Source of the DNA: Methanococcoides sp. AM1
GTDB taxonomy: Archaea; Halobacteriota; Methanosarcinia; Methanosarcinales; Methanosarcinaceae
Reading direction: 5' to 3'
DNA: 64,000 nt
NCBI RefSeq assembly: GCF_900774055.1
Contig: NZ_CAAGSW010000002.1
Location: forward strand, 372,001 to 436,000
Below the pieces are notes generated by a model. It saw only the letters and a program-made list of their open reading frames with translations, was not told the origin of the DNA and made no database searches. The position numbers and the translations under genes were made by a program. Below, one piece after another: positions 4,247 through 36,917 of the stretch (its first letter is position 1; each line of letters starts with the position of its first letter).

Positions 4247-4268
4247 TACACATTATCGGGTGGATAAT

Positions 4269-11180: not shown

Positions 11181-11197
11181 TTGGTGGACCGGTCGGG
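11181..11197 (-). other. attL candidate: 3' end of tRNA-Ala with CCA
   Basis: Read on the minus strand this is CCCGACCGGTCCACCAA. That is the last part of the T-stem, the acceptor strand, discriminator A and CCA of the tRNA-Ala at 36846-36917. Fourteen bases (11184-11197) match 36845-36858 exactly. No other part of the tRNA is present here, and a tyrosine integrase starts 44 bp to the right. Confidence 0.75.
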
Positions 11198-11240
11198 TCT
11201 ATAGTCCAAAAGTATATAGACCTAAGCACCAATTTATAAT

Positions 11241-12900: not shown

Positions 12901-13185
12901 GTGAAATGTAATGTGAACATACATGCAGATGTGGTAAAGTTTCTGAACGCACTCGATCCTGGAACAAAAGAAAGGATCGTTGACGGGTTGAAAGTCCTTG
13001 GCAATTTGCCTGTTGATGGTGATGTCAAGAAGTTGAAAGGTACAAAGGGTAGGAAGGACCTATATCGCTTGCGTATAGGCGAATACCGAGCTATCTATGA
13101 AGTTGAAGATGATAATGTGTATGTTCTGGAAGTTATGCTTCGTGGAAAGGGTTACGGGTGGCTTGATCGGCTGCTCGTCCTCTAA
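12901..13185 (+). CDS. RelE/ParE-family toxin
   Basis: The 94-aa protein starts at GTG 12901. The RelE fold pattern is clear: DVVKFLNALDPGTKERIVDGL (helical pair), then VKKLKGTKGRKDLYRLRIGEYRAIYEVEDDNVYVLEVMLRGKGY (beta-sheet with the basic strand Y-R-L-R-I-G-E-Y-R). Members of the family cleave mRNA on the ribosome or poison gyrase. The upstream antitoxin gene and the mobile-element setting support an addiction module. Its length is typical of the family. Confidence 0.88.
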   Translation: MKCNVNIHADVVKFLNALDPGTKERIVDGLKVLGNLPVDGDVKKLKGTKGRKDLYRLRIGEYRAIYEVEDDNVYVLEVMLRGKGYGWLDRLLVL

Positions 13186-17077: not shown

Positions 17078-19096
17078 TTAGTTGAGCTTTTTAATTATCT
17101 TTCCTTCGAAATCGTGATATTGATAATCATAGCCTTCCAGTGCTGCTTCCAGTTTCTCCCTTTCCTCACTAGTTGCAAAGATAATCTGTTGATTATATTC
17201 TTTTGCTTTTGATGAGCGCCTGAGTAAGTTATTATAACTTATTTGAGATGCATCTTGTTGACGTGGTTCATCGAAAATTAGCAGACCCGGATGGTTTGTT
17301 GCAAAATCACGTGACACTTCAAGTAATCCGCTCAAATATGCCCAGATTATTCTAATGAAGTCACTCGCAGACACATCAACCTTTAAATCAAAGGCTTCTA
17401 ATGTGGGTTTATATGTGTCATGGGATATTTCTATACTTTTACTGAAACTGCTAAAACCATATGCATCGAGTTGATGATTGAATGACTTCTCCAATAACTT
17501 TAATTTTTTGCGATCAGAGTTTGACAAGGTACCATCTGGAAGATGTTTTTCCCTTTCTAACAACGAATTCCATATAAATGCAAGATCTTCGAATTTACTT
17601 AAATTGAATTCGAACTCTTCCAAAATTCTCATCTGAAGATCTATTTTTTCTTCTAACAAAACCATTTTTCGCAGTGTTGATATTGAAGGCGTGTCTTCAC
17701 TCGAAGTTAGGGTCTGTTTCAGTGCGCGTATGTGTGCACGTATATCATTAACTTCGTTTCTTATGGAAAATAACTGATTATTCTTTACTTTAATTACTTC
17801 ATAATTACTTTCTTTCATTTTTGAAAATATTTCAATTTGGCTCTTGATGAATTTAATGTTCTCATCGACTGACATTGGTTCATCAAATGACTCATCTGCA
17901 ATCAAGTAGTCAGGAGTTTTTTGGTGACATACCGGACAAGTTTCATGTGTAGTAACTAAATTTTCATCTGAACCATATTTTCTTATCTTTTTGATGTCAT
18001 TGTTTCGACGCAGGTCTTCTTTCAGTGCACTCAACCGAATTTCAACTTCCTGATGTTGATTCTTTTCGAGATTAACTTCCTCAAAAATAGATCTCAATAC
18101 TACTTCTTTTTCTTCTAATAAATTCCGTGTGTCTTCCAGTTCCTTTACTAAAAGAGGTTCAGCTTGTCGAACAGTTGGTGTTTCTTCAGATTTCAAATGA
18201 GATAAAAGAACTTTATCTTCTTTGATTGCCCTCCTTATCGGAAGTTGCTTTTCATCCTGATAAACTCCAATATATGGCACTATCTTCGGAGGCCACGATG
18301 ATACGGGGGAACTTGGTAAGGATTGTATTGTTCCATTTATCGGAAGCAATAAATTATTACATACTGAAATTTGTGAGTCCCATTCGTTTTTTAAAATTTT
18401 CTTTTCTTCGACCAATTCTTGCTTTTTGATAGATACATTATATGCATCCAATTTTGCAAGATATTCAATGGATCGTTTACCAACTTCTTTGATCTTGTAA
18501 GTAGGCATGTTTGATTGTATGCCGCTCCAACCCACCTTCTGTTCAACAATCAATAAGGGGAAAATGCACTCTATATAGAGTTGAACTTCTTTTCCATCAT
18601 ATGTTCTTACCGTTGGAAGATCCCATCCTAAAAACGATTCAAGATATCTATGAAAACCCATTTCATTCTTTGCAGCTCCTGGATCCCTTACATAAAAATC
18701 GTGTTTTTCGTAGTCACCTTTTTTATTTGATAATGCAGGTCCATAAAACACAGAGATTAAACGGGTATCATGCTCAGTCTTGACAGCTCTCTTAATAGTG
18801 ATTACATCACCATTTCCATTGCTGATTTCTAAAAACACATCTGATTCGAGCACGTTAATTTCTTCACCATCGTCTACTAAGCGCGAAGTCATAACAGGTG
18901 GTAAAGGGACTATATTTTTTGAGGTGAGCATTCTTTCTAGCCCAAGGGCATACATTATCGATTGAACACATGTTGATTTCCCGGAAGTATTATCTGCCCT
19001 TAATATCACGAGCCCATCCTCAAATGGGATATTTACTCCATATAAACCTCGATTTGTTCTTATATCGAGTGAAAGTTGCCTAAGGTGCAGGGACAT
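17078..19096 (-). CDS. Rad50/SMC-like ATPase of an ABC-three-component system
   Basis: This 672-aa protein has a P-loop near residues 34-42 (ADNTSGKSTCVQSI) and a long helical middle predicted to be coiled coil (residues about 225-560). A CxxC hook sits near its centre (HETCPVCHQKTPDYL). At the C-terminus is a Walker B stretch, HPGLLIFDEPRQQD, followed by the H-loop-like IIFATSEEREKL. This is the Rad50/SMC class of ABC ATPase. The two genes upstream, in the same operon, are a winged-helix protein and a nuclease-like protein, which is the three-gene order of ABC-3C conflict systems. The SD GGAGGAA lies in the end of the preceding gene, 2 bp before the ATG. Role: probably sensing foreign DNA and licensing the effector. 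Confidence 0.82.
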   Translation of the reverse strand: MSLHLRQLSLDIRTNRGLYGVNIPFEDGLVILRADNTSGKSTCVQSIMYALGLERMLTSKNIVPLPPVMTSRLVDDGEEINVLESDVFLEISNGNGDVITIKRAVKTEHDTRLISVFYGPALSNKKGDYEKHDFYVRDPGAAKNEMGFHRYLESFLGWDLPTVRTYDGKEVQLYIECIFPLLIVEQKVGWSGIQSNMPTYKIKEVGKRSIEYLAKLDAYNVSIKKQELVEEKKILKNEWDSQISVCNNLLLPINGTIQSLPSSPVSSWPPKIVPYIGVYQDEKQLPIRRAIKEDKVLLSHLKSEETPTVRQAEPLLVKELEDTRNLLEEKEVVLRSIFEEVNLEKNQHQEVEIRLSALKEDLRRNNDIKKIRKYGSDENLVTTHETCPVCHQKTPDYLIADESFDEPMSVDENIKFIKSQIEIFSKMKESNYEVIKVKNNQLFSIRNEVNDIRAHIRALKQTLTSSEDTPSISTLRKMVLLEEKIDLQMRILEEFEFNLSKFEDLAFIWNSLLEREKHLPDGTLSNSDRKKLKLLEKSFNHQLDAYGFSSFSKSIEISHDTYKPTLEAFDLKVDVSASDFIRIIWAYLSGLLEVSRDFATNHPGLLIFDEPRQQDASQISYNNLLRRSSKAKEYNQQIIFATSEEREKLEAALEGYDYQYHDFEGKIIKKLN

Positions 19097-19098
19097 TA

Positions 19099-19578
19099 TC
19101 AGATTCCTCCGTTGAGTAAAACATTGACATCTTTTTCATTTATGTATGGTTTTATGCTTCTTAAAAAGTCCTTTTCTGTTGTAAAACAGTCATGAAGGGT
19201 TTCTATCTTATTTGCAAATTGTTTCCCTTTAGGAGTTAACCTTATCCCAGTAGAGTTCCCATATTCCATCACCACCAGCCCATGTCCTTTCGCAAAATCG
19301 ATGGCCCTGCTTATTCCGGGCTCAATTCGGATAACAATGTCATGCAGTGGTTTTTTTTCAATAAAATATCCATGTAAGATTTCACGGTTTTCGGGTGATC
19401 TAATAGCCCAATTTATTACATTTACTTTTTTTAGACTTGCTTTTTTGCCTCTGCTATAATCAAGAATTAACACCAAAACAGTAACTCTCCAATCTGGTCG
19501 AAGATCGGGTGGAATTGGTCTGGGCCGTCGAGTAAAGCTGAAGGGGATGTTTATTTGTGGGATGTCGGCTTCTCTCAT
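19099..19578 (-). CDS. Winged-helix middle component of the ABC-3C operon
   Basis: The 159-aa protein begins with a Pro-rich segment (FTRRPRPIPPDLRPDWR). A helix (VTVLVLILDYSRGKKASLKKVNVINWAIRS) is followed by a winged-helix-like region ending in FAKGHGLVVMEYGNSTGIRLTPKGKQFANKI. Small winged-helix 'middle components' link the ATPase to the effector in ABC-3C systems. Its ATG overlaps the effector's stop by 4 bp (ATGA), and the ATPase gene starts 2 bp after its stop, so the three proteins are made together. Assignment rests on fold pattern and gene order, not on a database match. Confidence 0.7.
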   Translation of the reverse strand: MREADIPQINIPFSFTRRPRPIPPDLRPDWRVTVLVLILDYSRGKKASLKKVNVINWAIRSPENREILHGYFIEKKPLHDIVIRIEPGISRAIDFAKGHGLVVMEYGNSTGIRLTPKGKQFANKIETLHDCFTTEKDFLRSIKPYINEKDVNVLLNGGI

Positions 19579-20507
19579 ATATAATCCTCATAATCAGAGA
19601 AATCAAGTGGACAACGCAATAGCCAATAAGAGATTGCTTCATAAGCTAAAATATTGACCGTTTGAGGCCTTAATCCTTTGAGTTCGTTAGTTAACTCGTC
19701 AGTATATTGTCTCATAGTATCATTAAATATCTCTGCTGGGGTACTGCTTGAAATAGACGTCTCTACTGAAAGGAAACGCTCTCTATCTTCTTTTGTTTTC
19801 AGTGCCTTTACATGTAAATCGGGATATTTAGATTTTAGATTATCTAGCACATTTTGTCCACTTATGTAATGATTTATGAAATCCATCTTTAGCTTTTCTT
19901 TTTTCTCATGACTAAAATTCCGAGGGGCCAATAAATTTATTTTTCTTTCTAAGTTTGCAATCATCTCATTATTCCCATCTGCAAAAATGGAGCATGCGTC
20001 TGCAGGCAAATCGTCCGGATCTACTCTTTCTTTTGTTAATCCACTGTCATGCAGTTGTGCAAGTTCTACTGCAAAATAATCCCGATCTATAATGTTAATG
20101 TGAAAATTTTCAGCAACGTAAGGTAAATTTAGTTCTCGAACTTCTTGGGCTTTTTTCTCAGCATGGTCCTGTAGTTTTTTAGTATTCCAATATGGTACAA
20201 CAAAAAGCCAGTGGGATATTTTTGTTGTTCCTAAAAGTTTTAATAATCCATCCGAGTTATTAATAAATTTAGTAATATCTCTAGTTATTTTATCTCTTTG
20301 TCGTCTATACCGAACATCGTGCTCCACAGGCTCTTCCACTGCATAACATTGGTATGCATATCCACTGTATGTGAAGCCCTCTAAGCCGTAATCTCCCCCA
20401 TCCGAATCTGGAATTTCAGCGAAATCATAACCATGTTTGCGTTTCAAAAGAACAACAATATGACGTTGCCATTCTTCTCCTCCCTCTTTCCACGTTATGC
20501 CTGGCAT
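19575..20507 (-). CDS. REase-like nuclease effector of the ABC-3C operon
   Basis: The 310-aa protein opens MPGITWKEGGEEWQRHIVVL. It carries a PD-(D/E)xK/Mrr-like core in residues 12-60: E in GGEEWQ, PDSDGGDYGLEGF, and YQCY in the position where Mrr-like enzymes have QxK. The loss of the usual Lys (Tyr at that place) is common in some REase-like families, but activity should not be assumed. The remaining 200 residues are helical, probably the surface that meets the middle component. It is the first gene of the operon, with AGAGGTAG before the ATG. A small divergent protein family lies upstream at 20688. Confidence 0.72.
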   Translation of the reverse strand: MPGITWKEGGEEWQRHIVVLLKRKHGYDFAEIPDSDGGDYGLEGFTYSGYAYQCYAVEEPVEHDVRYRRQRDKITRDITKFINNSDGLLKLLGTTKISHWLFVVPYWNTKKLQDHAEKKAQEVRELNLPYVAENFHINIIDRDYFAVELAQLHDSGLTKERVDPDDLPADACSIFADGNNEMIANLERKINLLAPRNFSHEKKEKLKMDFINHYISGQNVLDNLKSKYPDLHVKALKTKEDRERFLSVETSISSSTPAEIFNDTMRQYTDELTNELKGLRPQTVNILAYEAISYWLLRCPLDFSDYEDYI

Positions 20508-20687: not shown

Positions 20688-21044
20688 TTATGCTGTTCTT
20701 TTTTCCACGAAGTACAAATGTTGTCTGTCCGGGCAATACATGTCAAGATCTATTTTCATTCTCTGTATTAAATCGCAGCAGTACTTTGATGCGACCCCGA
20801 AATACTTCTTCAGAAGTTTGCAGAATTCATCGGTGGTCATGCCATTGTAGACATACCCTTCTAGTTCCAGGAGGATATCCCTGGCCAACTGCTCCTCAGA
20901 TATTGTCTCAGTGATGGTCACTTCATCCAATGTATGTACGTACTCGTAAGTGGATCCTTTTCTGTATAGATCTTCAGTTACATGCAATCGGATATTTTGA
21001 TAGTCGGTCTGACCACATTTTGAGCATTTTGTTTTTACATACAT
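20688..21044 (-). CDS. Hypothetical 118-aa protein with N-terminal zinc knuckle, paralogue of 21893-22177
   Basis: I choose ATG 21044 (MYVKTKCSKCGQTDYQNI), preceded by GGGGGCGG. The N-terminus has a CxxC pair. The C-terminal half (EEQLARDILLELEGYVYNGM, then CKLLKKYFGVASKYCCDLI) resembles the C-terminal half of the protein at 21893-22177: a helix, a two-residue turn, then LLK-x-x-F-G and a final LI-x-R. I infer that the two are paralogues within the element. Function unknown. Confidence 0.6.
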   Translation of the reverse strand: MYVKTKCSKCGQTDYQNIRLHVTEDLYRKGSTYEYVHTLDEVTITETISEEQLARDILLELEGYVYNGMTTDEFCKLLKKYFGVASKYCCDLIQRMKIDLDMYCPDRQHLYFVEKRTA

Positions 21045-21068
21045 TTCCGCGCCCCCACGCTGCAATGG

Positions 21069-21353
21069 TTATTCTAAAATAATTTCTTTGGATGATATTT
21101 TCTTGAACTCGCCTTCGGGTTCAGCTTCACAGATTGATTTGATTAACGAGCGGCCTTCTTCGGTTTGAAGATATGCAACGACTGCTTGACGGGCTGTTTC
21201 TTCATCAACTGTGGGCTTGTGCTGATCTGCAAAGTACTCTAGTGCTCGAATAACTGCCTCTGTTGCGGTTCTTGCAAACCCTTTCTCGACCATGAACTCG
21301 ATGTTTTCAAGTGCATTTTTGGTCAATCTGAATCCCGTCTGTTTTGTAGTCAT
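21069..21353 (-). CDS. Small ribbon-helix-helix-type regulator (94 aa)
   Basis: I place the start at ATG 21353 (MTTKQTGFRLTKNALENIEF); the longer upstream frame is not protein-like. The first 45 residues fit a ribbon-helix-helix or related DNA-binding domain: one strand (QTGFRLT), then helices KNALENIEFMVEKG and TATEAVIRALEYFADQH. The acidic helical tail is of unknown use. It is divergent from the AbrB-like gene at 21442, and both could act on the 88-bp region between them, which has TATA-like runs. Confidence 0.65.
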   Translation of the reverse strand: MTTKQTGFRLTKNALENIEFMVEKGFARTATEAVIRALEYFADQHKPTVDEETARQAVVAYLQTEEGRSLIKSICEAEPEGEFKKISSKEIILE

Positions 21354-21441
21354 ATCTCTTCGTGTATAACATATGTATAAACAAAAGATATAAATACGTG
21401 GTATGACAATGATTATACAATAGCTATACGGAGCATACCCA

Positions 21442-21609
21442 ATGACTGTGAGAAAAATATACTCCAGTAATGAAGGCCGTCTTCTAATCTCTATACCTGC
21501 GTTTCTCCGGGACAAATTCAACCTGGAAAAAGGCGATACAGTAGACGTAGACTGCAACAACGAACAGATTATAATCACCCCTATCAGGGAGACTGAAAAC
21601 AAAGAATAA
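21442..21609 (+). CDS. AbrB/MazE-type DNA-binding protein (55 aa)
   Basis: Sequence pattern: MTVRKIYSSNEGRLLISIP, then FLRDKFNLEKGDTVDVDCNNEQIIITPI. This is a complete swapped-hairpin SpoVT/AbrB domain, with the I-P-A-F-L-R-D-x-x-L-E-K-G-D-x-V core. The gene runs from ATG 21442 to TAA 21609. Such proteins regulate their own promoters or act as antitoxins; no toxin-like gene follows. With the divergent ribbon-helix-helix gene it may form the control switch of the element. Confidence 0.78.
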   Translation: MTVRKIYSSNEGRLLISIPAFLRDKFNLEKGDTVDVDCNNEQIIITPIRETENKE

Positions 21610-22648: not shown

Positions 22649-25396
22649 GTGGAGGTAAACACGCATCCTTCTGAATTCAAGAGATTTCACTATCTCCTTA
22701 CTAAGGACCATCCTGATTACGAACCGTTCTATTTTCCTCTGGAACGCAACGGGAAGGATCCACTGAAGAACAAGTCATGGAAGAAGAACCGTAAGACCTA
22801 CGAAGAAGCCTACAAACTGATGGAGAAAGGCTTCAACATAGGTATTGCAGGGACTGACAAAGACCAACTTGTGATCATCGATGTTGATGATATCAGCCAG
22901 GTGGGAGAAATCAAGCCCACGCTGATCAACCAGTCCAGGAAGAGGATTGGACGGCATGGCTTCTATTTCACAGAAGATTCTATAGCTAAATCCATTTTTG
23001 ATAATTCTGCCAAGCAGAACATCGCTACTGAGGACGCTGGAGAAGTCCGGTCTAACTGGCAGTATGTTGTTGCTCCTGGATCATACGTACCGTGTGCTCC
23101 GGAGGAAGTGGAACGCATTCCTGAGTGTGATCGCGAGAATGCTGGATACTACTCCATCATGGTGGAACACAGTGTCAGTTCACTCACCTATGATGAGATT
23201 CCAGAGGCCTACCGAACATGCCTGGAGAACAAGCGAGCTTCAGACACTGCAGCTCACCAGAGGAAGGATAAGCGTAGTACTCCGAAAGTAACAGACCATA
23301 AGAACAAATCTGCCTTGTGGGATCTCACGATCTCAGAGGTGACGGGGAAGTCTGAACACCCTACAAATCGATTCCCTTCGCTGTTCCACGGGTCAAAGAC
23401 CTACAAGGACACATCTGTGAGCAATGGAATGCTGCACTGCTGGAGGCACAATGTAAGTCATACTGCGCTCACAACCCTTGCGGTCCTGGCGGGTGTCTCA
23501 ACATGTAGTACTGCTGGATATGGTCACAATGGCAGTGGCGTATCAGCAGTCAATTTTGATGATGGTGAAGTGATCTACAAGCTCTGGAGATATGCCAAGG
23601 ATCACGGCTTCATTCCTGATAGTGACCCCATGCCAACAAAGGCCATGGTCTACTATGCTGTAGACAACACGCTCTGTCATCAGAAAGATGTCATCGGTGG
23701 ATGGAAGCTTCCTCCGGACGTCTACAACAGAGTACTCGAAACTACGGAATTTAACGTTGGCCGAGAACCGCTCAAGAAAAAGATCGGGCAGGCAATATCC
23801 GGAGCTGTAAACAACTCCATGCAGATTGCTCAAGCCCTCCAGGAAGAGGTTCCGATCTACTACGATGTGTCGAAGAACTACTGGATGTGGAATCACGATG
23901 GTGAGCGATACGAGCGAATCGATGAGACTGAGATACTGTGTCAGATCATGCAAGGCATGGGCATGGATTCCATCTACAGATCTCGCACGAAAGCTGAGAT
24001 CATGGAGTCCATCAGGATCACTGGCCGAATGCGAAGAGTGCAACAGACTCCGCGAACATGGATCCAGTTTGACAACTGTGTAGTTGACATTGATTCTGAC
24101 GAGAGGTTCCAGGCTACACCCGATTACTTCTTTGCTGCAAGGATTCCACACCGATATGGTACATCTGAAGATACTCCGACAATAGATCAACTATTTGAAA
24201 ACTGGGTAGGTCCTGAACGAAAGCAGCTGTTGTACGAGATCTGTGCATACTGCATGTATGATCACTATCCCATTCACAGGATCTTCACGTTGATTGGTCC
24301 TGGAGGCAATGGAAAGGGTCAACTCATGGAATTGATCAGGCGATTCATTGGTGCAGACAACTACACGTCTACTGATCTGGACAGGCTATCAAAATCACAG
24401 TTCGAGACCTCGAAGCTGTTCAAGAAGAAAGCAGCATTCGTTGGGGAGACCAACTTCAATACCCTCTCCAGAACGAACATGCTCAAGCAATTGAGTGGTG
24501 GGGATATCATCAGCTGCGAGTTCAAGGGCAAGGACTCATTCGATTTTGTGAATACTGCAAAGATCATCATAGCCACGAATGCACTGCCAGCGACTACGGA
24601 CCGTACTAGAGGATTCTACAGAAGGTGGCTGATTGTAGAGTTCAATAACAGTTTTCCGGAAGGGAAGGATGTTATTGATGACATCCCGGAGGAAGAGTAT
24701 GAAAATCTTTGCAGGAAATGTATCCGCATACTGAATGATCTCCTTGAGAGCGGGTCCTTCACTGCTGAAGGTACGATTGAGGAACGAGCTGCGCTCTATG
24801 AGAGGAAGTCTAATCCTGTAAATGCGTTCATTGATGAGAATTGTGTAAAGGACGAGGGGGCGTCAATGCCTACATGGTATCTGTTCGACCGCTATGAAGA
24901 ATTCAGAGAGAGGGGCGGATTCAGAGAACTTTCGAAGAGAGATTTCACCAAGATCGTTCATGAGTTAGGATACGAGACTAGCAGTACTTCGTTTAGTAAA
25001 GAGCAACAGGCAAAGTATAAGAAAGATCCTTCGGCGGACAGGAAAACATGGAGAATTATAAAAGGATTGGATATTCGAGAAGCGGACGATGACGAAGAAG
25101 TTACACTTAGTTACACTAATTACGGTACTTCTACTTCTATTTCCCCTAGGGAGAAACAAAGTAAAGATAGTGTAACGAGCGTAACTAGTGTAACTTCGGG
25201 TGAGATTTCACCAAATGCTATCCTTGACAATCTCATAATTTCTGAAGTAAAACAAACCTACGAAACGATGCATGTCCCTGACATCAACGAGTTTGTATTA
25301 AATTTCTGTAACAAGTATGCGATGTTCAAAGGTTCGATTGTGGGTCAGCGAGTGGAAGAACTTGCACTTGCTGGATTCAGTGGAGGTATTCAGTAA
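22649..25396 (+). CDS. P4-type primase-polymerase/helicase (915 aa)
   Basis: Start GTG 22649 with GGGAGG seven bases before. Residues 20-190 form a bifunctional primase-polymerase (AEP-type) domain, with NIGIAGTDKDQLVIIDVDD giving the metal-binding D-x-D. A linker with SNGMLHCWRHNVSHTALT resembles PriCT-type zinc or helical modules. The C-terminal half is a D5/P4 superfamily-3 helicase: Walker A in LIGPGGNGKGQLMELIRRF, AAFVGETN, and the sensor region IIIATNALPATTDRTRGFYR. Such proteins start replication of plasmids, viruses and integrated elements, so this element may replicate after excision. It is the last large gene of the small-gene chain. Confidence 0.92.
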   Translation: MEVNTHPSEFKRFHYLLTKDHPDYEPFYFPLERNGKDPLKNKSWKKNRKTYEEAYKLMEKGFNIGIAGTDKDQLVIIDVDDISQVGEIKPTLINQSRKRIGRHGFYFTEDSIAKSIFDNSAKQNIATEDAGEVRSNWQYVVAPGSYVPCAPEEVERIPECDRENAGYYSIMVEHSVSSLTYDEIPEAYRTCLENKRASDTAAHQRKDKRSTPKVTDHKNKSALWDLTISEVTGKSEHPTNRFPSLFHGSKTYKDTSVSNGMLHCWRHNVSHTALTTLAVLAGVSTCSTAGYGHNGSGVSAVNFDDGEVIYKLWRYAKDHGFIPDSDPMPTKAMVYYAVDNTLCHQKDVIGGWKLPPDVYNRVLETTEFNVGREPLKKKIGQAISGAVNNSMQIAQALQEEVPIYYDVSKNYWMWNHDGERYERIDETEILCQIMQGMGMDSIYRSRTKAEIMESIRITGRMRRVQQTPRTWIQFDNCVVDIDSDERFQATPDYFFAARIPHRYGTSEDTPTIDQLFENWVGPERKQLLYEICAYCMYDHYPIHRIFTLIGPGGNGKGQLMELIRRFIGADNYTSTDLDRLSKSQFETSKLFKKKAAFVGETNFNTLSRTNMLKQLSGGDIISCEFKGKDSFDFVNTAKIIIATNALPATTDRTRGFYRRWLIVEFNNSFPEGKDVIDDIPEEEYENLCRKCIRILNDLLESGSFTAEGTIEERAALYERKSNPVNAFIDENCVKDEGASMPTWYLFDRYEEFRERGGFRELSKRDFTKIVHELGYETSSTSFSKEQQAKYKKDPSADRKTWRIIKGLDIREADDDEEVTLSYTNYGTSTSISPREKQSKDSVTSVTSVTSGEISPNAILDNLIISEVKQTYETMHVPDINEFVLNFCNKYAMFKGSIVGQRVEELALAGFSGGIQ

Positions 25397-27668: not shown

Positions 27669-29273
27669 ATGAAGCTTTTATCTAATCTCATTACAATTCC
27701 AGAAAACAGAGTCACAAGTCCGCGTCGAAGTGCATTACTCGGTGCACTGGTAGTTCTGTTACTACTACTTCTCGTGTGGTGGCAGGCTGGACTTTGGTAT
27801 GAAGAGCAATTGCTTACTGATCAAAGAACTCAGGAGGCAATCGACCTAACATTACATGGAAATGCATTGTCAGCTGGCCTTACTCATAGATTTGCCATAC
27901 TTGAAGGGTTAGTTACATTCGTTCACTTTGATCCATCAGAGGAAGCTCTAGATGATAATTTCGATGATTTTACAGGTGGACTTTATTCTAGTACTGAAGG
28001 AATTCTTTATTTTTCAGTAGCTCCAGCTGGAGTTCAGAGTTATGTCTATCCTCTTGCTGGAAATGAATATGTACTTGGACATGACCTCATTAATGAAGAT
28101 GGTTCTGACTTGAGTATTGACGTACAGCGTGCAATGCAAACTCGTCAAGTTACTTTAAGTGGCCCATATGAGTTGCAACCCGATGTTCTAGGCATGGTGG
28201 CAATAAACTCTATCTATGTAAATGATACCTTCTGGGGACTGGCAACCATGGCTGTAGATATGCCATTTATTTTTGAAGAAGCTGGGCTTGTTCTGCCAGG
28301 CCATCCTAATATTGCAATAAGGGATGATGCGAATAATGTATTCTATGGAGGGGAACAAGTCTATGAGAACAATCCTGTCATACAACGTATTGAATTGCCT
28401 GATAGTTACTGGGAATTGGGGATAATTCCTACAGCAGGCCACACTGCTATTCAAGATAAAATTCTTGTATTCAAGGGTGCAGGTTTGATTATTGTATTGC
28501 TGCTAACTATGTTAACGTATATGGGTATTAATCGTCAGGCAATCTTGACTATTGCAGTTCAAGAGCGCACTGAAGAACTATCAAAAGCAAACGAGGAACT
28601 AATCTCACTTACTGATATGAAGGATCTCTTCACAGACATCATGCGTCACGACTTGCTCAATCCTGCAAATATTGTTAGAGGTTATACTGATGTTCTAGTA
28701 GATATGGAAGAAGAGGAGAATAAAATTCAGATTATCCAGACGATTAGGCGCAATAACGAAAAATTAATCGATATGATTGAATCTGCATCTAAATTTTCAA
28801 AGTTGGAAAGTCTTGAAGAACTTGAATTTGAAAAGATGGATATCGGAGATATTATTAAAGAAGTCGTGGAAAACTTCGAACCGCAACTTGAAGAGAAACA
28901 GATGGTTCTTGAGTTTGCAGCCAAAGAATATAATGCAAATGCAAATCCAATGATAGAGGAAGTATTTGCGAATTTACTATCCAATGCCATTAAGTACAGC
29001 CCTTCAGAGAGTAAGATCATTGTAGATGTACTCGATGCAGGAAATTACTGGAAAGTAACAGTGACAGACTTTGGAGAAGGTATCGCAGATGAGGATAAAC
29101 CAAAGTTATTCGAGCGGTTCAAGCGTGTAAACAAGAGCGGTGTTAAAGGAACAGGGCTCGGGCTTGCAATCGTTAAAAGAATTATTGATCTGCATGGAGG
29201 GACTGTCGCCATCGAAAATAATCCTGCAGGGCAGGGAAGTGTTTTCTGGGTAACTGTGGAAAAGTCACAATAA
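27669..29273 (+). CDS. Membrane sensor histidine kinase with CHASE domain
   Basis: The 534-aa protein has two membrane segments, about residues 22-40 and 266-286, enclosing an extracytoplasmic CHASE domain (GNALSAGLTHRFAILEGLVT, GILYFSVAPAGV, NEYVLGHDL). After a short coiled coil comes a HisKA region with the phosphoacceptor His in DIMRHDLLNPANIV. A HATPase domain follows (FANLLSNAIKYSP, DFGEGIADEDKPKLFERF, GTGLGLAIVKRIIDLHGG). It is an orphan: no response regulator is adjacent. It may sense a small ligand or redox compound outside the cell and control the cytochrome/copper cluster that converges on it from the right, but this is only suggested by position. Confidence 0.93.
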   Translation: MKLLSNLITIPENRVTSPRRSALLGALVVLLLLLLVWWQAGLWYEEQLLTDQRTQEAIDLTLHGNALSAGLTHRFAILEGLVTFVHFDPSEEALDDNFDDFTGGLYSSTEGILYFSVAPAGVQSYVYPLAGNEYVLGHDLINEDGSDLSIDVQRAMQTRQVTLSGPYELQPDVLGMVAINSIYVNDTFWGLATMAVDMPFIFEEAGLVLPGHPNIAIRDDANNVFYGGEQVYENNPVIQRIELPDSYWELGIIPTAGHTAIQDKILVFKGAGLIIVLLLTMLTYMGINRQAILTIAVQERTEELSKANEELISLTDMKDLFTDIMRHDLLNPANIVRGYTDVLVDMEEEENKIQIIQTIRRNNEKLIDMIESASKFSKLESLEELEFEKMDIGDIIKEVVENFEPQLEEKQMVLEFAAKEYNANANPMIEEVFANLLSNAIKYSPSESKIIVDVLDAGNYWKVTVTDFGEGIADEDKPKLFERFKRVNKSGVKGTGLGLAIVKRIIDLHGGTVAIENNPAGQGSVFWVTVEKSQ

Positions 29274-29410
29274 CATAAGTCCTGGATCCCTCCGCATTCC
29301 TTTTCATTTTTTTGCAAAGTCAATTCTTCAGAGGCAATGGCTTAAGGGGCTTCGGAACATTCTAGCAGGCATTCCCTCTCCAAAATTCATATAAGACGTT
29401 TTTTATCTCT

Positions 29411-30688
29411 TCAAATTCTTCTAAACATACATCCAATTATCAGCACTGCAACTGCAGTGATCACTCCGAATCCAGGAGTTTCTTCTGGAGTTGTTGGAAT
29501 CTGTATATCCTCATGTTCCACATTGTGATTTATTACAAATGGTGTTGTTTGAGCAGCCCATGATATATCTTCGTCTTCATGGCAGGACAAGCAGGCATAC
29601 TCCAATGTAATGTATGGATTTGCATATTCATTACCATCTTCTTGGTCAATATAAATGAATTCAGCATCCACGCTGGTATTGATTCTGAATATGTGCGAAC
29701 TTACATCTGCCACATAGGGAGAGGTGTTAACTGCAGATTTGACATTCTTTGGCATGTGGCAGTCAACACATTCCGCCCCTACGACTCCCATCACCGAATT
29801 TTCATATATTTCCGCAGCTTCTATATGACAATCCTCACAATGTGTAATTATCCCAAATTCTTCTATCTCGTTAGTAGCACCTTCATGAACGGGGTTGTGT
29901 GGATTATGACACACGACGCAACTTAGAGTAGACATATTTCCCGATGCTAATAGTTCCTGGTATTGCTCGTGGTGTCGAACAAATGTTCCGCTTGCAGGAA
30001 TTTTGTCATCTTCAGCTCCACGCCTGTGACATTGACCACAGAATGAAGCACTTTCATTCACAATGATTGAAACACCCCTAATCCCTTTCTCTGCCACATG
30101 TTCGCTGCCTGCCCCATGACACGCTTCACATTGGATTCCCCTGAACTCCCATGAACCATTTATTCCAAGGAGGTCTTCCATTTTCTCATCATAAGATACT
30201 CCAGTGGTATGGCATTTCTGACAGTCGTATTCAAGTAGCTCACCTGCATGATAATCCACCCATTCATCGGTTTCAATGTTATATTGATTCGAACCGTTGA
30301 TCTCTAGATCATCTCCAGTTTTTGTTATGATGAATCCCTGGTTGTTCATGTACCTGGCTTTCCAACCCCATCCTCCGATTACATAAAGAACATCATTTTT
30401 AGTATAACCCTCTGGCATTGGCAGATCAGGTCTAATTTCAAGAGCTTCATCTGGAGTCATGAGCTTATATTTATGACCTGACGTTTCCCATTCTCCATAT
30501 ATATCCTGATGGCAGACTTTGCATTCATCAGCTCCAATATATGTAGCTCCTTCGACAGGCATTACCACCGCCGTTTTTTGGTCACCTATGACATAGGTTT
30601 GCGCTGTTACTGCTATAGAAAGAATAATGACAATCGTGAATGAGATTATAATTACTGATAATAATCTATTGTGTCCTTTAAGTTTCAT
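29411..30688 (-). CDS. Secreted octaheme c-type cytochrome with PGF-CTERM-like anchor
   Basis: The 425-aa protein has an N-terminal signal/anchor segment (residues 8-31) and eight CxxCH motifs in order: CKVCH, CQKCH, CEACH, CGQCH, CVVCH, CEDCH, CVDCH, CLSCH. The C-terminus, TPGFGVITAVAVLIIGCMFR, has the form of a PGF-CTERM sorting signal: P-G-F-G, hydrophobic stretch, Arg pair. It would leave the protein fixed to the cell surface. Multiheme cytochromes of methanogens and their relatives move electrons across or along the envelope. The next gene is a small membrane protein that could link it to the quinone-like (methanophenazine) pool. Its ATG has GGTGGG upstream. Confidence 0.92.
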   Translation of the reverse strand: MKLKGHNRLLSVIIISFTIVIILSIAVTAQTYVIGDQKTAVVMPVEGATYIGADECKVCHQDIYGEWETSGHKYKLMTPDEALEIRPDLPMPEGYTKNDVLYVIGGWGWKARYMNNQGFIITKTGDDLEINGSNQYNIETDEWVDYHAGELLEYDCQKCHTTGVSYDEKMEDLLGINGSWEFRGIQCEACHGAGSEHVAEKGIRGVSIIVNESASFCGQCHRRGAEDDKIPASGTFVRHHEQYQELLASGNMSTLSCVVCHNPHNPVHEGATNEIEEFGIITHCEDCHIEAAEIYENSVMGVVGAECVDCHMPKNVKSAVNTSPYVADVSSHIFRINTSVDAEFIYIDQEDGNEYANPYITLEYACLSCHEDEDISWAAQTTPFVINHNVEHEDIQIPTTPEETPGFGVITAVAVLIIGCMFRRI

Positions 30689-30789
30689 TTAACCCACCAC
30701 TTGTATTTTGCCACTCGTATTATTCGATCTGCTCTCGTATCCTTGGAATATGAGGTCAGAAAGCAAAGTTAACATAATATCATTAAACT

Positions 30790-31089
30790 TCAATTGGGAT
30801 AAAGAATATGATGAACTATAACTACAATCAGCAATGCTAAGCAAGCGAGTATATAGATAACACCAATAATTTTCCGATCTCTTGGATTAGTTATAATTTT
30901 TTGATACATTTTCATGACTAAATTCCAATGAAGATACACGTGAACTAAAATTAAACCAAGTAATAGCAAACCCAAATAGAGATGGATATCCCCAAATAAA
31001 TGCATTTCAAGTAGTAAAGAAAGCCCGATTCCAACTAATGCCATGAGAACCAAGAACATCAAAGCTTCAATAAGAAAATTAAGTTTCAT
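30790..31089 (-). CDS. DUF4405-like small membrane protein
   Basis: This 99-aa protein has three hydrophobic segments, about residues 5-28, 35-54 and 72-95. Histidines sit at the membrane borders (LFGDIHLYLGL, LVHVYLHWNLV, VIVHHILYP). This resembles DUF4405/cytochrome b561-like proteins that bind heme b, although heme binding is not proven. It lies between the octaheme cytochrome and the copper pump on the same strand. A plausible role is passing electrons from the membrane to the surface cytochrome. Confidence 0.65.
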   Translation of the reverse strand: MKLNFLIEALMFLVLMALVGIGLSLLLEMHLFGDIHLYLGLLLLGLILVHVYLHWNLVMKMYQKIITNPRDRKIIGVIYILACLALLIVVIVHHILYPN

Positions 31090-31128
31090 CTCCTTTATAG
31101 AATCTCCCCCCTTACATTGAATTTTATT

Positions 31129-33162
31129 TTACCCCATCTTCAGCGACTTTGCATTTATGGATACTATGACTGTGCTAAGACTCATAAGAACCGCTCCAGC
31201 TGCAGGACTCAACAAGATTCCATAGCTAATTAAGACTCCAGCTGCCAAAGGAATTGCAAAGGCATTATAACCCGTCGCCCAGAGAATATTCTGAAACATC
31301 TTCGAGTAAGTTTTCTTTGAAAGAAGAATTATGTCAATTGCATCCCTGGGATCGCTTTTTACAAGAATTATGTCTGCACTTTCAATAGCCACATCTGTTC
31401 CAGCTCCTATAGCAATGCCTACATCTGCCTGAACAAGAGCTGGAGCATCGTTTACCCCATCTCCAACCATGGCTACAGTATATTTTTTCTGAATTTCTTT
31501 TATGGTCTGGGATTTTTCATGAGGTAAAACTTCAGCGAAGTAATCATCAAGTCCGATTTCTTCAGCCACCCATTGAGCAACGAAGCGATTGTCACCTGTG
31601 AGCATCATGCACTTAATGTCCATAGACCTGAGTTTCTCAATAGCCTCTTTAGATTCCTTTCTTATAATATCTGCAAGTCCCACTGCACCCAATGGTTTAT
31701 CACCTTCAAGCAAAAATACAACGGTTTTACCCTGCTGTTCTATTTTCTCGATTTGATCATTTTGAAGATCGATTCCATTTTCTTTAAGGTACCCTGGACT
31801 TACTACTTTCAATCTTCTTCCCTGAATTGAACCTTCAACACCTTTTCCAGGAATTGATCTGAAATCTTCAACATTACCTGGTTCAAGGTTTTGTTCTTTT
31901 GCACTGTTTACAACTCCAAGAGCAATGGGGTGCTCTGAGTCCGATTCCAGAGAAGCAGATAATCTTAGAATTTCATCTTTATCTGTATCTGCAAGAGGTA
32001 CTATGTCTGTGACTCCAAACTTACCTTCTGTAAGTGTTCCAGTTTTGTCAAAAACGATTGCCTGAAGATTCCTTGCTCTCTCAAAAGCCTGCCTTTCTCT
32101 GATCAGTAGACCCGAGCCTGCTGCCAGAGATGTGGATACAGCAACAACAAGAGGAATGGCCAAACCCAAAGCATGTGGACACGCTATAACCATAACAGTA
32201 ACCGCTCTCTCAAGAGCAAAAACAAACTCCTGGCCAAAGGATAACCATGCCACAAGGGTCAACGTACCAACACCTATGGCTATGATTGTAAGCACCAAAG
32301 CAGCTTTGTTTGCCAGATCCTGCGTCTTGGATTTGCTTTCTTGTGCAGTCCTAACAAGCTCAATGACCTGATTTAGATATGTATCCTTTCCAGTTTTCTT
32401 GACTTCTATATGCAGGGATCCTTCTCCATTAATAGCCCCGCCGATAATTTCATCCCCACTCTTCTTAGATACTGGTTTGGATTCTCCTGTCAGCATTGCT
32501 TCATTAACACTGGTCTCTCCTTCAATCACAACTCCATCAATCGGGATCTTCTCACCAGGTTTGACAAGTACTCTGTCTCCAACCTCCAGTTCATCCACAC
32601 GGATATCGACTGTCTCTCCGTCTCTTATAAGATGAGCTTCGGAAGGCATTATCTTCACAAGTTCTTCCAAAGCCCTTGAAGCACCTAGGACAGAACGCAT
32701 TTCAGTCCAATGACCCAGAAGCATGACATCTATTAGTGTAACCAGTTCCCAGAAGAAGAACTTCCCTGGTAATCCAAAAACTACTGCAGAACTGTAGAAG
32801 TAGGCCACACTTATGGCAATTGCAATAAGTGTCATCATACCTGGCTGTCTAGTTTTTAGTTCGTTGAAGATTCCTTTAAGAAAGGGGTGCCCCCCATAAA
32901 AGTAAATTACTGAAGATAATATGAAGAGGATAAAAATTGAACCAAAAAACTTAATCTCAAAACCTAAAAATGATTGTATGGCTGGTGATAGAATCAGAAC
33001 AGGGAATGTAAGAATTAGTGAAACAATAAATCTCTTTTTGAAATCTTCCATCATCATAGCGTGATGACTTTTTCCTTCATGCTCCATCCCGTGCATTTCA
33101 TGCTCATGAGGCATTTTTTCATCTGGTTCATGATTTCCTGCAGACTTCATTTCATGGTTCAT
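31129..33162 (-). CDS. copB: Copper-transporting P1B-type ATPase, CopB class
   Basis: I choose ATG 33162 (677 aa), which has GGGGTG upstream; the TTG at 33180 would overlap the preceding stop. The N-terminus is a His/Met-rich metal-binding tail (HEHEMHGMEHEGKSHHAMMM). Classic P-type motifs follow: TGES, CPH in the membrane (VIACPHALGLAIP, the CopB form in place of CPC), DKTGTLTEG, HP in DSEHPIALG, and GDGVNDAPALV. The CPH motif and His-rich tail mark export of Cu(II)/Cu(I) or Ag. Directly upstream and close in the operon is a DUF5676 membrane protein often seen with such pumps. Confidence 0.94.
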   Translation of the reverse strand: MNHEMKSAGNHEPDEKMPHEHEMHGMEHEGKSHHAMMMEDFKKRFIVSLILTFPVLILSPAIQSFLGFEIKFFGSIFILFILSSVIYFYGGHPFLKGIFNELKTRQPGMMTLIAIAISVAYFYSSAVVFGLPGKFFFWELVTLIDVMLLGHWTEMRSVLGASRALEELVKIMPSEAHLIRDGETVDIRVDELEVGDRVLVKPGEKIPIDGVVIEGETSVNEAMLTGESKPVSKKSGDEIIGGAINGEGSLHIEVKKTGKDTYLNQVIELVRTAQESKSKTQDLANKAALVLTIIAIGVGTLTLVAWLSFGQEFVFALERAVTVMVIACPHALGLAIPLVVAVSTSLAAGSGLLIRERQAFERARNLQAIVFDKTGTLTEGKFGVTDIVPLADTDKDEILRLSASLESDSEHPIALGVVNSAKEQNLEPGNVEDFRSIPGKGVEGSIQGRRLKVVSPGYLKENGIDLQNDQIEKIEQQGKTVVFLLEGDKPLGAVGLADIIRKESKEAIEKLRSMDIKCMMLTGDNRFVAQWVAEEIGLDDYFAEVLPHEKSQTIKEIQKKYTVAMVGDGVNDAPALVQADVGIAIGAGTDVAIESADIILVKSDPRDAIDIILLSKKTYSKMFQNILWATGYNAFAIPLAAGVLISYGILLSPAAGAVLMSLSTVIVSINAKSLKMG

Positions 33163-33176
33163 TCCACACACCCCGA

Positions 33177-33422
33177 TCAAGCAAATTTATTATAGAAGAT
33201 TCCGAACAAATATGCAAAAATGAATGAAATGATTGCAGCTTCAACCATTCCAGCAATTATACCAGTTGGATCCAGCGAGAAGAACGTATGCCATTGTTGC
33301 ATCATCTCAACTGCACCCGTGTACATTCCTAAATTTCCAAGTATTCCAAGTAAAAGCATTACTATTGCAGCAACGATTGCTGCAGCTAAACTAAATGCTA
33401 ATGGCTTTAATTGTTGTGTCAT
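33177..33422 (-). CDS. DUF5676-like small membrane protein
   Basis: The 81-aa protein has two hydrophobic segments (LAFSLAAAIVAAIVMLLLGI and GIIAGMVEAAIISFIFAYLF) separated by a Trp/His loop MMQQWHTFFSLDP. This is the usual form of DUF5676 membrane proteins found beside heavy-metal ATPases. GGGGGAAAT precedes the ATG. Its stop overlaps the possible TTG start of the pump, so the two are probably translated together. Confidence 0.65.
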   Translation of the reverse strand: MTQQLKPLAFSLAAAIVAAIVMLLLGILGNLGMYTGAVEMMQQWHTFFSLDPTGIIAGMVEAAIISFIFAYLFGIFYNKFA

Positions 33423-33619
33423 TTATTTCCCCCACTTTAAATGATGAACTTCATCTGGAATTACTGAAACATAGTGTTTCAGAGAGTGTATTTGCAACAA
33501 ATATGTCCCACCATACTTGCCCTATTATTACACCATAATCATATTTCATTTTGACTTATATAAACTAATCAGTAAGCGTTTGTAATTCAGTTCTACAAAA
33601 GATGAAAAGGAATAAGGGC

Positions 33620-33853
33620 TTAGTTGAGGATTGAAGTGATGATACTAAGGGTGATGTATGCCGTGAGCAACATTACAATCCCTATAAGTAAATAGGTAAG
33701 GATGTTCCTGTATACGACCTTCTTTTCAGATCCTGCTTTTATCCCAAAACCTCCAGCACAAGCACCACTTCCACAACCTCCGGTACTACAGCTCTCTTCA
33801 GTACCTTTTTCGCGGGTAACCACAGGAAGTGTTTTGAGTTCTTTGGACATCAT
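33620..33853 (-). CDS. Small Cys-rich membrane protein (77 aa)
   Basis: An N-terminal soluble part carries a Cys/Gly cluster, ESCSTGGCGSGACAGGFG. One C-terminal membrane helix follows (NILTYLLIGIVMLLTAYITL). The cluster could hold a metal or an iron-sulfur centre. It is separated from DUF5676 by 197 bp and may have its own promoter. No family is recognised; setting suggests redox or copper handling. Confidence 0.6.
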   Translation of the reverse strand: MMSKELKTLPVVTREKGTEESCSTGGCGSGACAGGFGIKAGSEKKVVYRNILTYLLIGIVMLLTAYITLSIITSILN

Positions 33854-34128
33854 TATTTCTTTTATTCCAGTTGATTATAAATGTTTGTATTTTGACATTA
33901 TTTGACATATACTGACCATCAGATGGCCTTTTTGGAAGGCCTATTGTTGATTCCCGCTCAATGTAATAGATAATTGTTAGGCTTAAAGAGCTTAAAGGCT
34001 GTAGCTTAGAGTTTCATAATATCGATGTACCAGTGGTGTTTTTTAGATATCCTCTGCTACAAAAAATACTTATTGTTGTATTATCTAAGTTTTAATGTAT
34101 CCATTTAATGAAAGTCGGGGGAATTTAA

Positions 34129-34686
34129 TTGGCAAAAAGAATTGTTATGACATTTGTTTTGATTGGAATAATATTAATTATAGCTGGATGTGTGAACGAA
34201 AGGACTGATTCTTACAACATGATGTCTCAGGAATATGGATGGCATGAACCTGGATTCATGTATCCTGATCAATATGATTCATCATTGGATTCCAATATTG
34301 TTACAGAATTTGACTCTAACGGAGAAATGATCTATTATACTGGGTTTAATGAGAATGAACAACAAATACCAGTAAGTGGTGGACCTCATTGGCTTTATGT
34401 TCACGGTGGTAGTTGTGTAAGCTGTCATGGAGTCGATGGTAAAGGTGGAGTACCAATTATGATGGGGACTGTAACTCCTCCAGATATAACCTATGAAACT
34501 CTGACTGCTGAAGAAGAGCATGAAGATGAACATGAGGAACATCCCCCATACACTGATGAAACTATCAAGGTTGCTATAAGAGAAGGTAAGGATCCTTCTG
34601 GAGAGGAACTTGATTATACAATGCCAAAGTGGGATATGTCCGATGAAGACATTGAAGATCTAATTGACTATCTGAAAACACTTTGA
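34129..34686 (+). CDS. Monoheme c-type cytochrome lipoprotein
   Basis: Start TTG 34129 after CGGGGGAATT. The signal sequence ends in a lipobox, LIIAGC (Cys21), so the protein should be lipid-anchored outside. One heme motif CVSCH is followed by GVDGKGGVPI, typical of class I cytochrome c. The distal Met ligand is probably in YTMPKW near the C-terminus, followed by the last helix DEDIEDLIDYLKTL. A His/Glu-rich insert (EEHEDEHEEH) could bind metal. It is divergent from the copper cluster. It may exchange electrons with the octaheme protein. Confidence 0.88.
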   Translation: MAKRIVMTFVLIGIILIIAGCVNERTDSYNMMSQEYGWHEPGFMYPDQYDSSLDSNIVTEFDSNGEMIYYTGFNENEQQIPVSGGPHWLYVHGGSCVSCHGVDGKGGVPIMMGTVTPPDITYETLTAEEEHEDEHEEHPPYTDETIKVAIREGKDPSGEELDYTMPKWDMSDEDIEDLIDYLKTL

Positions 34687-34738
34687 TTGATCAATCTACT
34701 TTTAATGTGGGGTAACCAGACCCACGTTTCTGTTTTTG

Positions 34739-36373
34739 TCATAAAGAGCTTCTCAACGTATAGGCACTCATAATCAGTGATACAAAAAATCCAACAATCC
34801 CTAAAGAACTGAAGTCTCCTTGAATAATCAGATACACAGATGAGATTATCAAGACCATTAGTAATGCATATCTCATTGATTCTCCAAGTAGGCGGTACCT
34901 TTTGAGAGTATTGCTCTTGGCTTCTAACCTTTCAAGTTTGTATCCACGAATAGTTTCAATTACGTCATTGATCCCAGATGGTAGGTTTTTGAATATGTCT
35001 ATATATTCATCACCTTCCATTTGGACAAATTCAACGGCTTGCGTTGGTGAATAACGTTCTTTTAGGGCTTTGGATATGACTGGACGTACTTCATCCATAA
35101 TATTATAGTTTGGATTAAGGTTAAGGCAGACTGCTTCAACAAGTATAAGTGCACGTTCTAGTGTAGAAAATTCACTTGGAAGCGACATGTTGTATTTCAA
35201 AGCAAGAAGTGCATAATTATCGCTTTTACGTTCCCCAATACCCCTATGTTGTTTTGTAATTAGTTCATCAATATCCCACTTAAATCTTGAAATATCGAGA
35301 TCCTCTTTGTTCAGCTTACCAATTTTCAAAAATGCATCTGCTGCCATATCCACTTTCTTTTTGTTTATAGCATAGAACAGGTTCAACATGTTGCGCCTTA
35401 ACTCATCATCAATCTTACCGACTGCACCAAAATCAATGAATGCTACCGTACCGTCTTTAACTACAATGTTCCCCCCATGTGGGTCGGCGTGGTAAAATCC
35501 ATCTAAATATACTTGCTTCAGGTAACTCGAGCTTATAAGTTGGACATATCGAGATTTTATTTCCTGGTTAATGTCACCTACATCTTTAACCAAGGTTCCT
35601 TCTATAAAATCCATGACCAGTACACTTTCTCTACAGTAATCGAGGTAGACCTTTGGAATGATTACATCTTCTACTTCCTCAAAATTATCGTGGAAGCGCA
35701 TCATGTTCATAGCTTCTATTTTGTAATCAAGCTCATTGTGAAGCATTTCTTTGAATTCTCGAAGAAATCGATCAGAATCAAAGTTGTCTCCGACACCCAT
35801 TAATTTTATAAAAAACGGTTTTAGATCATTGATTATTTCGAGATCTAAATTTATTGTATCAATTAGGTTTGGACGTGCAATCTTCACAGCAACTTTCTTT
35901 CCGTTAATGACCCCTTGGTATACCTGACCTATCGATGCACTTGCTATTGGTGTTGTATCAAGTTCATCGAATATATCCAATATATCATTACAATGGTAAC
36001 AGGTCGGATGGTGTTTATGATCTCCTTTCCCCATCTCGCAGATGCACTCCGTTTCAAAAGATTCACGCATCTTATCAAAGTCAAGAGGCTTGACGTTGTC
36101 CTGTAATTTCTCTAGTTCTAGTATGTATGTGTATGGTACTAAATCAGGGCGCTTGCTCAACATCTGTCCCAATTTTATAAAACTTGGTCCAAGTTCCTCA
36201 AAAGCAAGACGGAGCTTTGTAGCATTACTCCTATTTTTTAAATCTAAAGCACATGTGCATTTCTTGTTGGAAATGTGATCTTTATGAATATCCTTGTACA
36301 AAAGTGAAAACAAATTATACTTCAAAAATACCCTAATGATAGTTGCATATCTTTTGGATTTTTCCAGCATCAT
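34739..36373 (-). CDS. ABC1/UbiB (AarF) family atypical kinase
   Basis: The 544-aa protein has the family-specific K-x-G-Q motif (LGPSFIKLGQMLSKRPDLVP), an A-rich loop (IASASIGQVYQG) in place of a Gly-rich P-loop, VAVKIARPN, and a catalytic loop with HADPHGGNIVV and IDFGAVGKID. Two C-terminal hydrophobic segments (about 495-540) anchor it to the membrane. UbiB-type proteins support quinone and isoprenoid-lipid handling; in methanosarcinal archaea methanophenazine would be the analogous lipid, but that link is inference. A Cys/His cluster (CICEMGKGDHKHHPTCYHC, near residue 108) is an unusual insertion that may bind metal. Confidence 0.9.
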   Translation of the reverse strand: MMLEKSKRYATIIRVFLKYNLFSLLYKDIHKDHISNKKCTCALDLKNRSNATKLRLAFEELGPSFIKLGQMLSKRPDLVPYTYILELEKLQDNVKPLDFDKMRESFETECICEMGKGDHKHHPTCYHCNDILDIFDELDTTPIASASIGQVYQGVINGKKVAVKIARPNLIDTINLDLEIINDLKPFFIKLMGVGDNFDSDRFLREFKEMLHNELDYKIEAMNMMRFHDNFEEVEDVIIPKVYLDYCRESVLVMDFIEGTLVKDVGDINQEIKSRYVQLISSSYLKQVYLDGFYHADPHGGNIVVKDGTVAFIDFGAVGKIDDELRRNMLNLFYAINKKKVDMAADAFLKIGKLNKEDLDISRFKWDIDELITKQHRGIGERKSDNYALLALKYNMSLPSEFSTLERALILVEAVCLNLNPNYNIMDEVRPVISKALKERYSPTQAVEFVQMEGDEYIDIFKNLPSGINDVIETIRGYKLERLEAKSNTLKRYRLLGESMRYALLMVLIISSVYLIIQGDFSSLGIVGFFVSLIMSAYTLRSSL

Positions 36374-36428
36374 ATTACATATTTGTATTCTTATTGAAGA
36401 GGATTTCTATATATTAAATATTTTGATA

Positions 36429-36758
36429 TCACAACTGTGCCTTGTGCCGGATCTCAGACAAACTAACCGCCGGTATAACTCTGCTTAATTTGTCTGCTTC
36501 CGGACACAAATTAATCCTTGTTTTAATCAGCCTTGTTTTGTGTGGGATCTCAGAGAAATTACGGGCCTTTTGAAGATCAACTAATTTCCCCAGGAACCGG
36601 CAGAAAATAACAGCTCTTGGAATTACCACTAATTTTTGCCAGGCCTCAAACAAAATAAGCAGTGTTGTAACTCAAACTAATTTCTGTCTTCCAGGGGAGA
36701 AAATAACGGCGGGTATAGTCTGGCTTAATTTCTGGCTGAGGCCACACAAAATAACCAT
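36429..36758 (-). repeat. 48-bp tandem repeat array (seven units) with periodic open frame
   Basis: The motif AA(A)(T)TAAC recurs at 36460, 36508, 36556, 36605, 36653, 36701 and 36749: spacings 48, 48, 49, 48, 48, 48. Each unit also carries a facing TTAATTT-type arm, so units form imperfect dyads (CAGAnAAATnAC...CTnAATTTCTG). On the minus strand one frame is open from ATG 36758 to TGA 36429, apart from one TGA at 36672-36674. It gives 16-residue peptide repeats such as VIFCRFLGKLVDLQKA and VIFSPGRQKLV. It lies between the UbiB-like gene and the tRNA-Ala, inside the right end of the element. Confidence 0.85.
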
Positions 36759-36844
36759 CCTAATTAAGTACAAAAAAGGCAAAGAAACAGATGCTCATTT
36801 CTTCAAAATATCGGCATCTGCTTAGGTCTATCAAAAGTTTTTTA

Positions 36845-36858
36845 GTGGACCGGTCGGG
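36845..36858 (-). other. attR candidate: 14-bp core in the tRNA-Ala 3' end
   Basis: GTGGACCGGTCGGG is identical to 11184-11197. Here it forms the acceptor 3' strand and part of the T-stem of the intact tRNA. Downstream of the tRNA the sequence is CTAAAA on the coding strand, not CCA. Confidence 0.72.
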
Positions 36859-36917
36859 AATTGAACCCGAGGCCTCTACCATGCCAAGGTAGCGATCTTC
36901 CCCTGATCTACCGGCCC
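36846..36917 (-). tRNA. tRNA-Ala (anticodon GGC)
   Basis: The minus strand starts GGGCCGGTAGATCAGGGGAA and ends CCGGTCC-A. The 7-bp acceptor contains G3-U70, the alanine identity pair. The anticodon stem CTACC/GGTAG holds the loop TTGGCAT, anticodon GGC, and the T-arm is CGGGTTCAATTCCCG. The 72-nt gene lacks an encoded CCA, unlike the neighbouring tRNA-Ile. It is the proposed attachment site of the element. Confidence 0.93.

Follow-up and report, generated by a model that had tools for sequence, protein, structure and literature searches.

A regular array of 48-bp units, each carrying an imperfect dyad, occupies the right end of a 25.7-kb element integrated in the tRNA-Ala(GGC) gene of a Methanococcoides genome, within the stretch of 64,000 nucleotides that was analysed (the window). 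The array is non-coding, its conservation is concentrated in the arms of the dyads, and related arrays recur in other genomes at the attachment ends of related elements. The best explanation of these features, to which we give moderate confidence, is that the array, expanded in this element, serves the attachment site as an accessory region for nucleoprotein assembly, probably one that modulates integration or excision.

The integrated element and its attachment ends

The element extends from 11184 to 36858, and its two ends carry a 14-bp direct repeat of the tRNA 3' end that is identical at both positions. The copy at the intact tRNA is the attachment core attL (CCCGACCGGTCCAC, 36845-36858, minus strand), which is formed by the terminal 14 nt of the tRNA, and the copy at the left end is attR (11184-11197, minus strand). 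Empty sites are present in three relatives (L041, L042 and L048), in which the outer flanks are joined at a single copy of the repeat and the flank matches overlap by 17 nt. The direct repeat and the empty sites together identify 11184-36858 as an integrated element. The integration target is the tRNA-Ala(GGC) gene itself (36845-36917, minus strand), and the integrase gene adjoins the left end of the element, as is required of a genomic island.

The integrase (11241-12437, plus strand) is a tyrosine recombinase with a SAM-like core-binding domain from residue 35, a catalytic domain at residues 143-315 and a C-terminal zinc ribbon. No N-terminal arm-binding domain was recognised in a domain search or in the AlphaFold model, which is of low confidence (mean pLDDT 67, pTM 0.45).

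Both ends of the element contain the 11-bp sequence ATAGACCTAAG as a perfect inverted repeat, each copy of which occurs once in the window. The left copy (11216-11226, plus strand) lies 18 bp inside the left core, just ahead of the integrase gene, and a corresponding repeat is found upstream of most related integrases; the right copy (36821-36831, minus strand), a putative integrase arm site, is also present in related element ends. The left copy appears to overlap a TATA-like sequence, AAAAGTATATAG, ahead of the integrase, and this overlap (11205-11226) suggests that the integrase may be autoregulated by arm binding.

Read on the minus strand, the right end consists of the core, 13 nt, ATAGACCTAAG, a 33-bp dyad, a T6 tract and the array, which begins approximately 90 bp from the core. 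The 33-bp dyad (36788-36820, minus strand) may form a hairpin of the type CAGATGC...GCATCTG between the arm repeat and the T tract; 78% of cells pair at this position, compared with 24-43% when it is slid, and compensatory changes are few. The T6 tract (CTTTTTTGTACTTAA on the minus strand, 36772-36777) is kept in related element ends and is likely the terminator for the tRNA transcript. The dyad and the T tract behind the tRNA may together be a terminator that is supplied to the tRNA gene by the element.

A regular array of dyads beside the tRNA gene

The array (36429-36770, minus strand) lies between tRNA-Ala(GGC) and an ABC1-like kinase gene, and it is delineated by autocorrelation, pattern search and unit comparison. 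Autocorrelation of 36429-36770 reveals peaks at lags of 96 (0.54), 48 (0.48) and 144 (0.46), and a value of 0.54 at any lag is reached in none of 1000 dinucleotide shuffles of this region. Each 48-bp unit contains an 11-bp imperfect dyad of the form (G/C)TTAnTTTsTG-N10-CAsAAAnTAA(G/C). A search of the window with TTAWTTTSTN12ASAAATTAR, with at most three mismatches allowed, returns 12 matches, corresponding to six places on both strands, whereas 1.67 are expected and none of 100 shuffles gets to 12. All of these matches are confined to the array, and no match with at most two mismatches is found in the rest of the 2.48-Mb genome.

In ascending coordinates, the six full dyads start at 36485, 36533, 36581, 36629, 36677 and 36725, with a step of exactly 48 bp and no indel between them. 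Counted along the minus strand, and thus in the opposite order, units 1-6 are 36708-36755, 36660-36707, 36612-36659, 36564-36611, 36516-36563 and 36468-36515, together with a degenerate seventh unit at approximately 36429-36467. The most perfect dyad is that of unit 6 (36485-36514), a near-identical copy of which is found at the end of the array of another genus (genome G013, described below).

The preliminary description of a seven-unit, 48-bp array of dyads therefore needs some adjustment: the array is real and has six full dyads, but the seventh unit is degenerate. The reported spacing of 48 bp holds throughout dyads 1-6, and the single value of 49 bp is a product of the choice of arm. Likewise, the reported arm AAATAAC is present in its exact form in some units only, and the consensus of the arms is TTAnTTT / AAAnTAA.

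The array is not among the repeats reported by Tandem Repeats Finder. Pairs of whole units have 16-28 of 48 positions in common, rather than the near-identical repeats with unrelated spacers of a CRISPR array, and this assignment was rejected, in agreement with the earlier judgement that the array is not CRISPR. The likeness to CRISPR arrays is in the partly symmetric repeats and the regular spacing; unlike those arrays, conserved arms alternate here with short variable parts, and the whole belongs to an att end next to tRNA genes.

Dyad arms are more conserved than the rest of the unit

A comparison of the six full units reveals a pairwise identity of 71% in the arms, 30% in the inner ten positions and 41% in the remainder, with 26% expected by chance. 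The difference between the arms and the rest of the unit is significant (p = 6e-5, six full units), and none of 5000 column permutations reaches the dyad symmetry of the unit profile. The half-sites alternate in orientation along the array and are approximately 24 bp apart. Conserved arms, inner 10-bp segments that are near chance and a spacing that has not drifted fit protein-binding half-sites.

The preliminary description had offered a decayed repeat protein with 16-residue repeats as one explanation. The period of 48 is a multiple of three, and a minus-strand frame with one TGA does exist; however, a frame on the plus strand is equally open, and when the arms are fixed and the variable letters are shuffled, 50% of the trials give a best frame, out of six, with no more stops than this (p = 0.50), which renders the open frame meaningless. 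Additionally, the homologous array of genome G008 contains 1-bp indels and has stops in all six frames, and conservation tracks the dyad arms rather than codons. A protein-coding origin was thus rejected as extremely improbable.

The second explanation in that description was a set of DNA or RNA structures. For RNA, a minus-strand transcript of the region that follows the tRNA would be a structured molecule with one hairpin per unit, and both strands indeed fold better than shuffled sequences (z of -2.9 and -3.5). However, DNA dyads fold trivially, and the covariance test of the dyad arms reveals no covariation: arm pairing is 60.0%, compared with a shuffled mean of 60.0% (a value reached by 291 of 500 shuffles), and compensatory changes are as frequent as expected by chance. 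A conserved T tract separates the tRNA from the array, and the Rfam matches are tRNAs only. RNA hairpins were rejected for the dyads because of the missing covariation, and a structured RNA is quite unlikely on these grounds. The lack of covariation between arms is expected if each half-site matches a protein and not a partner in an RNA stem. The DNA option, in contrast, is supported, in that the array is DNA at the end of a defined element with an integrase and attachment sites.

Recurrence of the end sequence in Methanosarcinaceae

The 237 genomes of the class were searched with a model built from the right-end sequence (R1, E<=1e-4), and this search identifies 19 places in 13 genomes, which belong to five genera of Methanosarcinaceae. 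Most of these places are 3' ends of tRNA-Ala(GGC), Ala(CGC), Arg(TCT), Gln(TTG) or Gln(CTG). The related ends contain 7 (the window), approximately 5, approximately 4, 2, 1 or 0 units. The closest array, with approximately five units, follows tRNA-Arg in G008; in G013, approximately four units follow tRNA-Ala(CGC), and integrase remnants of the same family are present at L147:13126-13277. Two loci with two units each are found in G007. An orphan fragment that resembles units 5-6 occurs in another genus (G058, L127) beside a transposase-like open frame and without a tRNA. As to the question raised in the preliminary description, whether the unit is present in other methanogen genomes and always beside tRNA genes, it does recur, and the G058 fragment is an exception to the tRNA setting. 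Weak R2 matches in G130 and G180 were taken as chance. In the viral contigs, neither a relative of the integrase nor a copy of the three DNA patterns was found.

A probable second element of approximately 8.7 kb is located at tRNA-Ala(CGC) in the same genome as the window (L118, contig C1, 49400-63400). It shows an intact tRNA with the same end sequence, followed by a partial tRNA copy (L030) and another copy of the end sequence.

Comparison of intact elements separates the end sequence from the cargo. An element at the same tRNA in G009, whose integrase is 94% identical, has the right end in common with the window element, including a single weak unit, and only a 26% primase match and one 35-residue fragment in common with the window cargo. 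The layout of the window element recurs at tRNA-Arg in G006, in an element whose integrase is 71% identical: the intact tRNA, the end sequence and one weak unit are on one side, and the integrase and a partial tRNA are on the other. These two comparisons indicate that the end sequence belongs with the integration module rather than with replication or cargo. A second G009 element, at tRNA-Gln and with a 78%-identical integrase, contains the arm repeat and zero units, which suggests that recombination itself may proceed in the absence of the array; judged from these sequences, the array would be either dispensable or modulatory. The variable copy number and this unit-free relative are the strongest counterpoint to an accessory region.

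The same observations bear on the possibility that the array is a neutral tandem amplification of one att-side unit, without present function. In its favor are the wide variation in copy number, with one unit or none in most relatives, and the remnant in G013; moreover, the arms and the inner parts have diverged equally between the arrays of the window and G008, as expected of a remnant. Between the units of the window, however, exact spacing combined with near-random interiors and well-conserved arms argues against the neutral decay of a duplication, which would not produce this pattern, and in several elements the distance between the core and the first unit is nearly constant. Neutral amplification is therefore considered rather unlikely.

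The array could also be a set of operators that lies upstream of the first cargo gene, the ABC1-like kinase (34739-36373), because it ends approximately 55 bp from the start codon of this gene, just upstream of a TATA-like sequence at approximately 36405-36412. The neighboring gene differs elsewhere, however, and encodes a 443-aa protein that is Fic-like by sequence reading in G013 and a 1247-aa protein in G006, whereas the array side remains anchored to the tRNA across carriers. An operator function is very unlikely.

A possible accessory region for integration and excision

If the array is an accessory region of the attachment end, its alternately oriented 11-bp half-sites would be occupied by a dimeric DNA-binding protein, and the filled half-sites would form a regular nucleoprotein array beside the putative integrase arm sites. 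In the excised circle, the crossover core would separate the array, approximately 90-430 bp away, from the integrase gene immediately on its other side, such that excision is predicted to join the array, the core and the integrase gene. An accessory region in this position may modulate integration or excision at the tRNA gene. As a more specific and more tentative proposal, the ordered array of alternately inverted half-sites might determine in which direction, or when, a family of Methanosarcinaceae elements integrates and excises, with the copy number tuned between elements. Concerning the protein that may bind, a search for one encoded by the element and common to all array carriers found none, and a 125-residue candidate (20688-21065) proved to be widespread in the genus, often in the form of broken copies; among the proteins compared, the integrase is the link between the intact elements that carry the end sequence. 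Because the dyad is absent from the rest of the genome, a host regulator that also acts at other operators is unlikely.

Iteron origins and plasmid centromeres typically contain protein-binding repeats in regular arrays, and the array might instead provide the excised circle with its origin or with centromere-like partition sites, to which a replication or segregation protein encoded by the element would bind. The element does encode a replication protein, a PrimPol / D5-like helicase (22649-25396, plus strand), and a protein (21069-21566) that is RHH-like (ribbon-helix-helix) by sequence reading and has no Pfam match. However, the primase gene is 11 kb from the array, and no match to the primase was found in G008, which carries the closest array; an iteron origin was rejected for these reasons. 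The RHH-like protein has no match outside its own genome, and no ParA or ParM family was detected among the element proteins scanned. Although the array resembles iteron origins and centromeres as a regular series of short repeated sites on a mobile element, its fixed point is the attachment site rather than a replication gene, its dyad units have a near-random inner sequence, and no partition genes were recognised. The cumulative GC skew along the element is uninformative. A role as origin or partition sites is unlikely. Of excision, replication and partition, which had been suggested together in the preliminary description, the control of excision and integration is the best remaining candidate, and the other two are disfavored by the replicase missing in G008 and by the lack of a recognised partition ATPase.

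The attachment ends are most readily compared with lambda-type att sites, in which, as here, a short core at a tRNA gene is flanked by inverted arm repeats beside the integrase gene, and further repeated sites are present on one arm. The ends differ in that no N-terminal arm-binding domain was recognised in the integrase, the arm sites are putative, up to seven evenly spaced dyads of variable copy number are present, and the host is an archaeon.

The passages of a review that treat characterised archaeal integrases describe these enzymes as working without accessory factors in the assays covered (PMC8371274), which argues against an accessory region. The window element resembles the SNJ2-type and other classical archaeal integrases as described in those passages in that the integrase gene is intact and the tRNA core is 14 bp, as for IntSNJ2 (PMC8371274); the account in those passages includes no flanking dyad array (PMC8371274). 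Plasmid and phage collections contain only distant integrases (<35% identity), and the best phage-collection matches to the window integrase are, in line with the SNJ2 type, integrases of archaeal pleomorphic viruses (28-30% identity). The elements compared here form an archaeal family with a 14-bp core, in which conserved inverted arm repeats are combined with a separate, copy-variable dyad array right beside the core. The natural variants, with 7 to 0 units and partly with closely related integrases, make the contribution of accessory DNA to archaeal integration directly testable.

Cargo of the element and other features of the window

A ParE-like toxin gene (12901-13185) is situated directly behind the integrase gene, and the defence cargo consists of Lamassu LmuB, LmuC and LmuA (17078-20507, minus strand). 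The 125-residue protein encoded at 20688-21065 belongs to a family that is represented in 9 of the 11 genomes of the genus, and many of its copies are broken by stops. The cargo at 27669-36373 comprises a CHASE-domain histidine kinase, a multihaem cytochrome, a copper-type P-ATPase, a cytochrome c and the ABC1/UbiB-like kinase, and it is rich in redox and metal functions. Outside the element, two 420-bp tandem copies that are 99% identical are present at 4359-5177, within an open frame of 1836 codons (4233-9743).
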